Source: Bacteroidia bacterium (GTDB taxonomy: Bacteria > Bacteroidota > Bacteroidia > J057). From it: a stretch of 64,000 nt of DNA. How positions within the stretch are numbered: position 1 is the first letter of the stretch; each line of letters opens with the position of its first letter. Below the pieces are notes generated by a model. The model did not search any database. It was given only the letters and a program-made list of their open reading frames with translations, and was not told where the DNA came from. The stretch covers positions 62,001-126,000 of the forward strand of contig JAUIGE010000009.1 of the NCBI GenBank assembly GCA_030430205.1, given 5' to 3'. Below are positions 18,767 to 58,635 of this stretch, in pieces. Position numbers and translations under genes: made by a program.

Positions 18767-19795
18767 ATGAAAAATTCCCTGCGAATATGGATCGCCTGCC
18801 TGGCTGGCATATTGCTCTCCTGCAATCCGGAAAGCCCGTCTGGCGAAATCCACAAAACCCTCTACCTGCGTCATGCAGGTGCAGATATGCCCGCCTACCT
18901 GCACGGCAATGCCGATAGCAAAACCTTCCTGGTGGTGCTGCATGGGGCAGGCAGCTTTGGGCTGGCTTTTAGAGATGGCATGTTTATCTCTGATCTGGAG
19001 GAAAATTATGTGGTCGTATACTTCGACCAGCGCGGGCAATCCATGGCCCAGGGCCATTACAATACACCGGAGGACCTGATCGATCTGATGGCATCGGATG
19101 TGGAGGCGCTCCTGAAGCTCCTGAAACACACATATGGAGAAGACATCAGTCTTTTTCTGATGGGACATAGCTGGGGGGGACTGCTCAGCGGCGCGACATT
19201 ATTGCGCCCTGGCGTGCAGGCAAGCCTGAAAGGCTGGATCAATGTCTCAGGGCTGATGGACCTGCCCGGCGCCAGTCTGGCGAGGAAAGACATCATCCAG
19301 ACGATCGCGGAGGAGCAGATAGCCCTGGATATCAGCGTGGAAGCATGGCAGCAAATCCGGGACGAGGCAATAGGATTGAATCCGGAATCGGATGATACAG
19401 AGATACTGAAACTGGCTGCGCGAAGCATGAGCCAGCTGATCGCCGATGAAACGGTCCGCAGGACCGTCAGCTCTGAGAAGCTCTACAGAGCCCTGATCGA
19501 CAACAATCCCGTCAACTGGCAGGTATCCTGGTTTTTCAACCAGCCCGTGGCCTATGCCAAAGAAGTGGATTACTCTCTGTTGGGGAGCTTGTCGCAGATC
19601 AGCCTGCCCTCCCTCTTTATGTATGGCAAATACGATGTGAGCGTGCCGGTTACGGCTGGCGAGCTTGCTTACCTGAATCTGGGAAGCCAGGAACGAAAGT
19701 TTGTTCGTTTTGATGCTTCCATCCATCATCCCCACGATACAGAACCGATCAAATTTTCCGAAGAGCTTCGCTTGTTTATCAATTCCTATCGGTAA
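18767..19795 (+). CDS. alpha/beta hydrolase lipoprotein
   Basis: A 342-residue alpha/beta-hydrolase with a lipoprotein signal (LAGILLSCNPES). The oxyanion region is VVLHGAGSFG near 60, VVYFDQRGQSMAQGHY near 83 is the typical strand and loop before the nucleophile elbow, and the nucleophile is the Ser of LMGHSWGG near 131. The Asp candidate is in YGKYDVSVP near 290, and the His candidate in ASIHHPHDT near 322. The substrate is not evident; relatives include proline iminopeptidase-like and general esterase groups. Its location is probably the periplasm or cell surface. Confidence 0.85.
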   Translation: MKNSLRIWIACLAGILLSCNPESPSGEIHKTLYLRHAGADMPAYLHGNADSKTFLVVLHGAGSFGLAFRDGMFISDLEENYVVVYFDQRGQSMAQGHYNTPEDLIDLMASDVEALLKLLKHTYGEDISLFLMGHSWGGLLSGATLLRPGVQASLKGWINVSGLMDLPGASLARKDIIQTIAEEQIALDISVEAWQQIRDEAIGLNPESDDTEILKLAARSMSQLIADETVRRTVSSEKLYRALIDNNPVNWQVSWFFNQPVAYAKEVDYSLLGSLSQISLPSLFMYGKYDVSVPVTAGELAYLNLGSQERKFVRFDASIHHPHDTEPIKFSEELRLFINSYR

Positions 19796-19854
19796 AAATG
19801 CAGCAATCTGCTAAGCCAAAGCATTTATTGCAATGCCGGCTCAACCTATTCCCG

Positions 19855-19889
19855 AATTCTGTGTTAGTCAATCTGCGTTTTGTGTAAGC
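19855..19889. promoter_or_regulatory. putative AraC operator: two direct repeats 21 bp apart (upstream of araC)
   Basis: GTGTTAG begins at 19861 and GTGTAAG at 19882, the second preceded by CTGCGTTTT. The distance is exactly 21 bases, two helical turns, as expected for an AraC-type dimer on direct repeats. The same pair occurs at 21035-21073 in front of the SDR gene. Confidence 0.5.
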
Positions 19890-19959
19890 GCAGCAGGGAC
19901 AGATTATAGACCTTTGTGAATAAAGAAAGTCGATAAAATAAATCACCTATTTACAAAAA

Positions 19960-20061
19960 TTTCTCTCCGCCACTCCGACTCCTTCGCAAAGCCTCAGGAC
20001 ATATCTCTGTTCAATTTTGCGACGCTCTGATTGAACGGAGAGGCGCTGAGGCGGAGAGAAA
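19960..20061. repeat. 102-bp composite inverted repeat
   Basis: Outer arms of 12 bp (19960-19971 and 20050-20061) are perfectly complementary. An inner stem pairs 20005-20015 with 20030-20040 with one G-T pair, and GCCTCAG/CTGAGGC offer an alternative pairing. It lies between the upstream operator and the araC start and could be a small dispersed repeat or a structured leader. Confidence 0.7.
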
Positions 20062-20121
20062 AAATGATACAGTGTATTGATCTATTTGGGGCTTTCCTAA
20101 GCAAATCAACCCGAAAATATT

Positions 20122-21030
20122 ATGTCTGAAAACATTATCCGAATAAGCTCAATCAGCCAGCTGCATACCCTGCTGGGCTTTCCCAAACCCCTGCATCCCT
20201 TAATCTCCCTGATAGATGCTTCAAAGATTCAGATAAAGGATACGGAATTGAATACCCGGGTCATTTATGACTTTTACATGGCCTCGCTGAAGGACAAAAG
20301 CTGCGGCGGCGATTATGGCAGAAAATCCTTTGATTTTGAGGAAGGCGTGATGGTTTTTTCTGCGCCCGGGCAGGTCTATGCCTATACCCAGGAGATAAAT
20401 GCAGGAGATATTTCGGGCTGGATGCTTTTTTTTCACCCCGATCTGATCAGGAATACGCACCTGGGCAATCAGATGGATGACTACTCCTTTTTCAATTATG
20501 AAGTAGTGGAAGCCCTGCATTTGTCAGAGGAGGAAGAAAAGAGGATGCTTGACACCGTAGCCAATATTCAACATGAATATGAGCAGCGGATTGATAAACA
20601 TAGCCAGCGGGTGATCGTTTCCAACCTGGAACTGCTGCTCAACTACAGCCTGCGGTTCTACGAACGGCAGTTCAACACCCGCACCAGCGAAAGCAAGGAC
20701 ATCCTTGCCCTTTTTGAGACAGAACTCAAAGCCTATTTTAAGCAGAAAAAGCACCTGGAATCTGGCCTTCCCAGCATTCAATACTTCGCGGAACAGGCGA
20801 ACTTGTCTCAACATTACTTCAGCGATTTGCTGAAAAAAGAAACAGGCAGAACGCCCAAAGACCACATCAATGACTTTGTCATTGAGAAGGCCAAGAACCT
20901 GATCTTAGGAACAGATCAGTCAATCAGTGAGATAGCCTATGACCTGGGGTTTAACTACCCCCATTATTTCACCCGCCTGTTCAAATCCAAAACCGGCCTG
21001 ACGCCTGTGGCCTACCGAAGCCAAAATTAA
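20122..21030 (+). CDS. AraC family transcriptional regulator
   Basis: A 302-residue regulator. The C-terminal third (about 200-302) is a two-helix-turn-helix AraC DNA-binding domain: IQYFAEQANLSQHYFSDLLKKETG, then IGEIA-like SISEIAYDLGFNYPHYFTRLFKSKTGLTPVAYR. The N-terminal part has a cupin-like ligand-binding pattern (FDFEEGVMVFSAPGQVY; a WMLFFHPDLI segment near 113). This architecture is common in regulators placed beside a single oxidoreductase gene. It is followed after about 106 bases by the SDR gene, and repeated 21-bp-spaced elements precede both, suggesting that it controls itself and its neighbour. Confidence 0.94.
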   Translation: MSENIIRISSISQLHTLLGFPKPLHPLISLIDASKIQIKDTELNTRVIYDFYMASLKDKSCGGDYGRKSFDFEEGVMVFSAPGQVYAYTQEINAGDISGWMLFFHPDLIRNTHLGNQMDDYSFFNYEVVEALHLSEEEEKRMLDTVANIQHEYEQRIDKHSQRVIVSNLELLLNYSLRFYERQFNTRTSESKDILALFETELKAYFKQKKHLESGLPSIQYFAEQANLSQHYFSDLLKKETGRTPKDHINDFVIEKAKNLILGTDQSISEIAYDLGFNYPHYFTRLFKSKTGLTPVAYRSQN

Positions 21031-21034
21031 CCTT

Positions 21035-21073
21035 CTGCATTTCGTGTAAAGCTTCCTGCATTATGTGTTAGTG
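21035..21073. promoter_or_regulatory. putative AraC operator: two direct repeats 21 bp apart (upstream of SDR gene)
   Basis: CTGCATTTCGTGTAAAG (21035) and CTGCATTATGTGTTAGT (21056) are direct repeats exactly 21 bases apart, between the araC stop and the SDR start. They match the pair upstream of araC. Confidence 0.6.
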
Positions 21074-21136
21074 AGGCCCGCTTTATTCAGAGATATTTGT
21101 AGCGTAAAAAATATTCTATACAAAACCCATTTAATC

Positions 21137-22204
21137 ATGACCCAGATAGATAAAACGAAACCCGTAATGGTAACGGGCGCCAACGGTTACGTAGCCAGTT
21201 GGTTGGTAAAGAGGCTGTTAGACGAAGGCATCACCGTTCACGCAGCCGTGAGAAATCCCGATAACGAGCAGAAAATCAAGCATCTAAAAGACGCTGCTGC
21301 GAATTCCAAAGGGGAAATCAAATTTTTCAAAGCAGACCTCCTCAGCCCGGGATCATACAAAGCAGCCATGGAAGGCTGCGAGTTGGTATATCATACCGCT
21401 TCCCCTTTTACGATTGAGGTAAAAGATCCCCAGAAAGAGCTGATCGAACCCGCGGTGCAGGGTACCGCAAATGTGCTGAATTCAGCCAAAGAAGTAGCTT
21501 CTGTAAAAAGGGTGGTTGTCACCAGCAGCTGTGCGGCCATATACACAGATGCCATTGACACGGTAAACGCTCCGGGTGGAAAGCTGACCGAAGAAGTGTG
21601 GAATACCACAGCATCTTTGGCATATCAACCCTATTCCTATTCCAAAACCCTGGCAGAAAAAAAGGCCTGGGAAATAGCAGAAGGCCAATCCCAATGGGAT
21701 CTGGTAACCCTCAATCCTCCCGGCATATTTGGTCCTCCTTTAAATCCGCATAACACGACCTCTGAAAGCATGAATATCCTGAAAATGCTGGGCGGAGGCG
21801 ACATGAAGATGGGCGCACCCAAATTGGGGATCGGCGTGGTAGATGTCCGCGATGTCGCAGAAGCGCATTACCGGGCAGGCTTTACCCCTGCTGCGCAGGG
21901 CAGGTACATCACAGCCGCACATAATACCAATTTCCTGGAGATGGGCACCGTTTTATTGCCGAAGTATGGGGATCAATTTCCGCTGCCCAAAAAGGCACTT
22001 CCCAAGTGGTTATTGATGCTTGTCGGTCCCATGGCCAATAAATTGTTCTCCAGAAAATTTCTGCGCAACAACGTGAATGTGCCCTGGAAGGCCGACAACT
22101 CAAAAATCAAAAAGGAGCTGGGCATGACTTTCAAGCCCTTAAAAGAAACCATGGAAGATGGATTTCAGGTATTGGTGGATGAAGGGATTTTGAAAGCGAA
22201 ATGA
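21137..22204 (+). CDS. extended SDR, dihydroflavonol-4-reductase-like aldehyde/ketone reductase
   Basis: The 355-residue product is an NADP-dependent extended short-chain dehydrogenase. The dinucleotide site VTGANGYVASWLVKRL lies at residues 11-26, VVVTSSCAAIY near 123 carries the active-site Ser region, and PYSYSKTLAEKKAW near 158 supplies the catalytic Tyr and Lys (YSKTLAEK). NPPGIFGPPL near 188 is typical of dihydroflavonol reductase and cinnamoyl-CoA reductase relatives. It probably reduces aldehydes or ketones, perhaps for detoxification. The ATG at 21137 gives the normal N-terminus. It is probably controlled by the upstream AraC regulator. Confidence 0.92.
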   Translation: MTQIDKTKPVMVTGANGYVASWLVKRLLDEGITVHAAVRNPDNEQKIKHLKDAAANSKGEIKFFKADLLSPGSYKAAMEGCELVYHTASPFTIEVKDPQKELIEPAVQGTANVLNSAKEVASVKRVVVTSSCAAIYTDAIDTVNAPGGKLTEEVWNTTASLAYQPYSYSKTLAEKKAWEIAEGQSQWDLVTLNPPGIFGPPLNPHNTTSESMNILKMLGGGDMKMGAPKLGIGVVDVRDVAEAHYRAGFTPAAQGRYITAAHNTNFLEMGTVLLPKYGDQFPLPKKALPKWLLMLVGPMANKLFSRKFLRNNVNVPWKADNSKIKKELGMTFKPLKETMEDGFQVLVDEGILKAK

Positions 22205-24888: not shown

Positions 24889-25566
24889 ATGATGAGATTG
24901 ACCCCGATTGTTAAGAATATTATTATTATAAATGTCATTGTATTTGTCCTCTGGCCGCTTTCTGTCCTCTTGTCAGGAGGTTTTACGCCAGGTGACGGAA
25001 GCATTTTTTCAGAAATTGATCTGTTCTTTAAGCAGTACTTTTTTCTCTGGAAAACAGATCTTGTCATCCCCAACTCATACAATGGAGAGTATTTTAAACC
25101 CATCCAGATCATCACCTATTTTTTCACGCATGGTGGAGTTGTTCATATTGCTTTTAATATGCTCTTCCTGGCCAGTTTGGGACCTGTGGTGGAAATGGTG
25201 ATGGGTCCTAAAAGGTTCCTGGAATTTTACCTTTTTTGTGGTGTTGTTGGAGGAATACTTGTGACTTTGTTCGATCCTTCCTCAGCACCTGTAGTGGGTG
25301 CTTCAGGCGCGCTTTTTGGCGTTCTGGTTGCCTTCGCGCTATATTTTCCCACGCAAAAATTATCCTTTTTCTTTATAGGTTCATTCGAAGCGAAAAAGTT
25401 TGTCATTGGGGCTTGTGTTATCTCAGCGGCACTTGTGGTCGCTGATCTTGTGGCAGCAGGAAGCGAGCTGGGGGTAACCAGCGGCATCTCGCACTTCGGC
25501 CACCTGGCAGGCGCTGCAGCCGGTTTTTTGTATTTTCAAGTAAGAAAATATATCCCAACCAAATAA
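24889..25566 (+). CDS. rhomboid family intramembrane serine protease
   Basis: A 225-residue, six-helix rhomboid. The active-site serine lies in GASGALFG and the histidine in SHFGHLAGAAAGF near the C-terminal helix; the FTHGGVVHIAFNMLFLASLGPVVE loop (HxxxN region) is intact. It should cleave transmembrane substrates in the inner membrane. It starts 19 bases after the mutL stop and is followed by a second rhomboid-like protein lacking the catalytic residues. The ATG at 24889 was preferred over a TTG at 24862 within the mutL end. Confidence 0.93.
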   Translation: MMRLTPIVKNIIIINVIVFVLWPLSVLLSGGFTPGDGSIFSEIDLFFKQYFFLWKTDLVIPNSYNGEYFKPIQIITYFFTHGGVVHIAFNMLFLASLGPVVEMVMGPKRFLEFYLFCGVVGGILVTLFDPSSAPVVGASGALFGVLVAFALYFPTQKLSFFFIGSFEAKKFVIGACVISAALVVADLVAAGSELGVTSGISHFGHLAGAAAGFLYFQVRKYIPTK

Positions 25567-25621
25567 CCCGAAACCCGAAACTCGAAACCCAAAACCCGAA
25601 ACTCGAAACCCAAAACTCGAA
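25566..25621. repeat. 7-bp tandem array after the rhomboid gene
   Basis: Eight heptamers of the form AC(C/T)C(G/A)AA follow directly on the stop codon, for example ACCCGAA, ACTCGAA, ACCCAAA. The same unit, on the opposite strand, forms the array at 46991-47046. Confidence 0.85.
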
Positions 25622-58559: not shown

Positions 58560-58635
58560 AAATGTGTAATAGCAAATGAAAGATGAGTTTTAGTAATTTG
58601 TGTAAATTAGAGAGATTAGTCAAAAATTCAATTGT

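Follow-up and report, generated by a model that had tools for sequence, protein, structure and literature searches.

Direct repeats spaced 21 bp apart as predicted operators of an AraC/XylS-family regulator and its neighbouring carbonyl reductase in a Bacteroidia bacterium

Two repeat pairs beside a regulator gene

In the 64-kb stretch of DNA analysed here (the window), two adjacent genes on the same (+) strand, one for an AraC/XylS-family regulator and one for a short-chain dehydrogenase (SDR), are each preceded by a pair of direct repeats. The question raised by this arrangement is whether the repeats are operators through which the regulator controls its own gene and the reductase, as the first-pass annotation had proposed, and in which direction it would act. 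The four repeat copies and both 21-bp spacings given in that annotation are correct to the base, and read directly the whole pairs extend over 19852–19888 on the araC side and 21035–21071 on the reductase side. The sequence CTGC(A/G)TT, said to stand in front of three of the four cores, is found at 19873, 21035 and 21056; the fourth copy (19852) has CCGAATT in its place. The features are as follows.

19852–19867, + strand: distal half-site of the predicted araC operator, CCGAATTCTGTGTTAG, core GTGTTAG at 19861–19867
19873–19888, + strand: proximal half-site of the predicted araC operator, CTGCGTTTTGTGTAAG, core GTGTAAG at 19882–19888
20122–21030, + strand: AraC/XylS-family regulator, 302 aa, C-terminal double helix-turn-helix (Pfam HTH_18 1.3e-20, HTH_AraC 3.1e-17)
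21035–21050, + strand: distal half-site of the predicted reductase operator, CTGCATTTCGTGTAAA, core GTGTAAA at 21044–21050
21056–21071, + strand: proximal half-site of the predicted reductase operator, CTGCATTATGTGTTAG, core GTGTTAG at 21065–21071
21137–22204, + strand: extended SDR, dihydroflavonol-reductase/cinnamoyl-CoA-reductase/Gre2-like carbonyl reductase, 355 aa (Pfam Epimerase 2.9e-23)

The regulator has two helix-turn-helix units at its C terminus, as members of the AraC/XylS family do, and its Pfam HTH_AraC match falls in two stretches. An AlphaFold model of the protein (mean pLDDT 84.6, pTM 0.71) retrieved AraC-family matches in Foldseek, with a DNA-binding domain like the MarA, SoxS, AdpA and AraC structures. 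The N-terminal half has no Pfam match and gave weak Foldseek matches to the regulatory domains of RhaR and AraC (5u93_B, E 1.2e-4, TMt 0.67; 2aac_A, E 1.1e-3). For the reductase, the nearest solved structures are 4qtz (4.8e-54) and 5tqm, with Gre2 (7ymb) lower down; its closest solved relatives are dihydroflavonol 4-reductases and cinnamoyl-CoA reductases, then the methylglyoxal reductase Gre2. The araC operator is preceded by an alpha/beta hydrolase gene, whose end lies at 19795.

With up to three mismatches allowed, the 37-base pattern of the pair has two matches in the window as against none in 100 shuffles. Searching the whole genome for the pair at its 21-bp spacing, a check that the first-pass annotation had suggested, gave the two window pairs alone in 7,238,886 bases at the same tolerance, and the reversed pattern, used as a control, had no match genome-wide. 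The lone half-site has five matches in the window against 2.1 expected, a number reached in 6 of 100 shuffles and therefore not significant; the signal is carried by the pairing, and any claim resting on half-sites alone was dropped. The + strand of the window contains 13 exact copies of GTGTWA, which form three pairs 7–60 bp apart; two of these are the operator pairs and the third lies at 58564/58600 with a lag of 36.

Conservation and target genes in relatives

Regions around related regulator genes were taken from 80 named loci, whose AraC proteins are 53–74% identical to the window regulator (one scan), and from 13 further loci (L004–L016, 39–71% identical) found in 60 whole genomes of relatives. 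Two of these 93 regions are duplicates by AraC protein (L004 = L044 and L005 = L086), leaving 91 distinct, and one (L108) has just 57 bases upstream of araC in the sample. If each core is allowed at most one mismatch, lag-21 pairs of GTGTWA stand upstream of araC in 59 of the 93 regions, the remaining lags having a mean of 3.3 and a largest count of 18 at lag 32, and downstream of araC in 35 of the 93 (other lags: mean 3.1, largest 11). The complementary strand, taken as a control, has the pair in 1 of 93 regions upstream and 2 of 93 downstream, and araC itself contains it in 11 of 93. Exact cores at lag 21 number 16 upstream and six downstream, with at most one at any other lag. The direct-repeat operator with a 21-bp period that typifies AraC/XylS regulators is therefore found both in the window pairs and in the lag-21 peak of the relatives.

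A 75-column matrix was built from 86 sites of relatives with the window sequence excluded. Under this matrix the 75-bp window sites score 48.8 bits (reductase) and 48.1 bits (araC), no other place in the window scores above 3.6, and the highest score there from 20 column-permuted matrices is 7.2 bits. The relatives' own scores are partly circular because the training rows were picked by a consensus rule; leave-one-locus-out scoring found 136 sites of at least 14 bits in 84 of 92 loci (L004 was dropped as a copy of L044). Because the permuted control had a 99th percentile of 7.3 bits and a maximum of 21.6, counting was restricted to sites of at least 25 bits, of which the 80 named loci hold 116; such a site lies at araC in 64 of these loci, at another gene in 51 and at both in 45. 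Absence of the pairs from orthologous loci had been named in the first-pass annotation as a result that would speak against it, and at least one site of this strength, scored leave-one-locus-out, is present in 70 of the 80 named loci; the remaining 10 have none and count against the operator reading.

Information amounts to about 1.4 bits in the columns of the cores and 1.7 bits in those of the predicted −7 promoter box described below, and to 0.07 bits in the 20-bp spacer leading to that box. This confinement to the cores and the box, with its absence from the spacer, indicates selection and not recent descent. Chance similarity, or recent shared ancestry of the two intergenic regions, might be read into the finding that the lone half-site is no rarer than chance in the window; we rejected both because the pair is absent from 100 shuffles and unique genome-wide, because of the lag-21 peak, and because conservation is confined to functional columns among AraC proteins down to 53% identity, and we give this explanation practically no weight. 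On the sequence evidence, the repeat pairs are very probably operators of the intervening AraC regulator, which is predicted to activate its own gene and the carbonyl reductase gene. The proposal of autoregulation combined with control of the reductase is thereby well supported, sites with the 21-bp spacing being predicted at the promoters of araC and of other genes in relatives.

The 136 sites of at least 14 bits comprise 73 before an araC relative, 13 before a relative of the window SDR and 50 before something else. One of the 13 SDR relatives, in L072, is just 36% identical to the window SDR, and L005 and L086, with their identical AraC protein, are both among the loci with such sites. The last group includes 48 proteins of at least 60 aa, and 38 of these were scanned (chosen as at least 150 aa, on the + strand and with a site of at least 25 bits); 34 of the 38 match adh_short (classical SDR) and three match aldehyde dehydrogenase. 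Short-chain dehydrogenases are most of the non-araC targets in relatives, and these counts point to a module that is mostly AraC plus a carbonyl-redox enzyme. In L048 and L051 the reductase follows shortly after araC (gaps of 34 and 27 bp), and one site may serve both genes; in L005 and L086 the SDR gene precedes araC, and the site lies in front of the SDR.

Profile R1, built from 42 of the sites, marks no site below E 0.1 in the window's own genome other than the two window sites (7.8e-10 and 9.1e-5; the next match is at 0.101), and a wider regulon there was rejected on this result. In two relatives (G005 and G008) the profile again marks a site on either side of the orthologous araC. Across the 60 relatives most matches at E 0.001–0.1 resemble noise, and G009, a genome without an AraC match, nevertheless gives three profile matches, the best at 4.9e-4.

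Three minor observations belong with these searches. A strong operator-like site in G003 (G003:C1:5319305–5319373, locus L130, E 3.4e-6) has no AraC homologue listed nearby; the ORF that apparently follows it resembles a metallohydrolase by eye, and the site is a possible distant regulon member. At about 25520–25620 on the − strand of the window, degenerate TTTCGGGTTTCGGG tandem repeats give low-scoring matrix hits. An AraC orthologue 70% identical to the window regulator (L046) comes from a record labelled Anaerolineales (Chloroflexota) and has no site of at least 14 bits; on the tree its AraC protein falls among the rows of Bacteroidota, so that the label of the bin may be wrong.

Promoter register and proposed mode of action

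The promoter consensus of Bacteroidota is described as TTTG at −33 and TAnnTTTG at −7 (PMC7366714, PMC6847099), with the G of TTTG set at −5 (PMC6847099). Predicted −7 boxes, which were absent from the first-pass annotation and are added by the present analysis, follow both operators, and the araC leader contains a further element.

19909–19916, + strand: −7 box of the predicted araC promoter, GACCTTTG, 27 bp after the start of the proximal GTGT
19935–20075: genome-dispersed inverted-repeat element, MITE- or REP-like, between the araC promoter and the start codon; not an operator
21092–21099, + strand: −7 box of the predicted reductase promoter, GATATTTG, 27 bp after the start of the proximal GTGT

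When pairs in relatives were picked on their cores alone, nAnnTTTG stood exactly 27 bp from the start of the proximal core in 46 of the 59 upstream pairs and in 27 of the 35 downstream ones; the next most common offset among those listed has a count of 2. Transcription starts computed from the sequence fall near 19921 (araC) and 21104 (reductase), which would put the proximal core at about −39 to −33. By its constant 27-bp distance from the −7 box, the proximal half-site is placed over the −33 region, the arrangement of class II activation, and so has the overlap with the −35 (here −33) region that is usual for AraC/XylS operators. The predicted reductase leader is 33 nt, equal to the mean leader described for F. 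johnsoniae (PMC6847099). TTTG (−33) was found 19–21 bp before the −7 box in 0 of 118 sites, and the box differs from TAnnTTTG at the first base in 85 of 118. The lack of a −33 TTTG fits activator dependence, an argument that is weakened by the −33 element being described as weak in Flavobacterium generally (PMC6847099).

The same operators might instead work with the opposite sign at araC, or at both genes, with the regulator over −33 repressing its own promoter and activating or repressing the reductase according to ligand. Negative autoregulation does occur in the AraC family, and a proximal half-site that overlaps the polymerase site could serve to block polymerase and not only to recruit it. 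Against this, the promoters of araC and of the targets share one 27-bp register, lack the canonical −33 element and depart from the −7 consensus at its first base in the counts given above. That the promoters are weak and keep the activator in a fixed register speaks for activation at both, and the opposite sign seems to us unlikely.

In the proposed arrangement, the upstream box (CTGC) of each half-site would lie roughly one helical turn from its core (GTGTWA), a spacing that would suit a single AraC-type DNA-binding domain with its two helix-turn-helix units, and two regulator subunits would bind head to tail on one face of the DNA. With the proximal core over −33 and the −7 box at a fixed distance, the bound regulator would most likely contact RNA polymerase and activate (class II). 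One operator would drive araC and the other the carbonyl reductase, with no further good match in the genome, and the inducer may be a carbonyl compound. We infer binding, activation, positive autoregulation and a carbonyl inducer, and the best reading is that of an AraC/XylS activator that acts on its own gene and on that of a Gre2/DFR-like carbonyl reductase.

The 141-bp element in the araC leader has 22 full or partial matches in its own genome, itself included, and hairpin folding of the leader (19920–20121) gives z = −3.35. The distance from core to ATG is 240 bp for the window araC, compared with 43–79 bp (measured up to the start of the tblastn match) in 56 upstream rows of relatives, and the element therefore appears to have been inserted between promoter and gene. 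It may hinder read-through from the araC promoter into araC and might weaken autoregulation there.

This layout has several known counterparts. At araI1–I2 of Escherichia coli, AraC has a pair of direct half-sites with a 21-bp spacing, of which the proximal occupies −35, and the window half-sites are likewise direct, 21 bp apart and placed with the proximal one over the −33 region; unlike in E. coli AraC, a distant looping half-site was not found genome-wide (pair pattern with up to three mismatches; profile at E 0.1). XylS is described as binding the Pm promoter of the Pseudomonas putida TOL plasmid as a dimer on tandem direct repeats, 15-bp half-sites in each of which 6 bp separate box A (TGCA) from box B (GGTA) (PMC5481539). 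Three of the four window copies similarly have TGCA or TGCG placed 6 bp ahead of GTTA or GTAA; this likeness concerns the operator layout, and the window system has a different core, a Bacteroidota −33/−7 promoter and an SDR target. Direct repeats with 21-bp periodicity are also described for Bacteroides RhaR and for hybrid two-component regulators (HTCS) with AraC-type DNA-binding domains (PMC3870299, PMC3878776). These share both periodicity and phylum with the window system but differ in their sugar and polysaccharide targets and their own motifs, and HTCS are membrane sensor kinases whereas the window regulator is one-component. In E. coli, YqhC is described as an AraC-family activator adjoining the aldehyde reductase YqhD/YqhE and induced by glyoxal and furfural (PMC5297802). 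The window resembles yqhC–yqhD in having an AraC-family gene beside a carbonyl reductase gene, which does not imply orthology with YqhC. YqhD is not known to be an SDR, and yqhC is divergent from its target whereas both window genes lie on the + strand.

An AraC switch of 21-bp repeats is already well known and published for Bacteroides; the window system adds a well-supported example and leaves the general understanding of AraC regulator mechanism unchanged. A search of the open-access literature returned nothing on this motif or on the AraC–SDR gene pair. For a gene pair that is widespread in Bacteroidota, the locus provides a concrete map of operators and promoters that can be tested cheaply, and its fixed register (half-sites 21 bp apart, −7 box at +27) could help to assign operators to uncharacterised Bacteroidota AraC paralogues.

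The recognition helix and paralogous regulators

An alignment of 46 relatives shows an almost unvarying recognition region, with C61 present throughout; this residue, the sole cysteine of the window protein (codon 20302–20304), is kept in 89 of 94 aligned rows. NYPH, the motif of the second recognition helix, is changed in 9 of 92 loci, and the site is absent from all nine, as against 11 of the 83 loci that retain NYPH. With 20 more paralogues included, a site is present in 73 of 84 NYPH loci and in 0 of 28 non-NYPH loci. NYPH forms one clade on the tree (98/97 support), so the coupling of helix and operator is one event, confounded with descent, and a residue-level specificity code in which N278/H281 reads GTGTWA was kept only as a lead.

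These data also bear on whether a DNA-binding protein other than the adjacent AraC regulator, perhaps a global one, uses the repeats instead, as the good G003 site (C1:5319305), with no AraC homologue listed nearby, could suggest. The two window sites, however, stand alone in 7.24 Mb and flank the regulator gene, sites recur beside orthologues phylum-wide, and paralogues whose recognition helix is altered lack them; a different protein is very improbable. A broader and rather speculative possibility is that the NYPH clade constitutes a phylum-wide carbonyl-stress switch, in which a one-component AraC regulator would sense reactive carbonyls via C61 and control an interchangeable SDR or aldehyde dehydrogenase, with paralogue clades keeping the 21-bp scaffold and reading other cores (such as TTACnG). 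Were this so, several insulated copies of the regulator could coexist in one genome.

When the regions upstream of paralogues were scanned automatically for other 21-bp repeats, most of what emerged was noise. TTACnG, a pattern chosen after that repeat search, occurs at lag 21 in 5 of the 13 loci tried (L011, L162, L163, L164 and L157). In L157 the repeat lies on the opposite strand to araC and downstream of it. The other four loci belong to a paralogue clade with a KYPQ or RYPQ recognition helix, and in these the TTACnG repeat lies ahead of the regulator's own gene.
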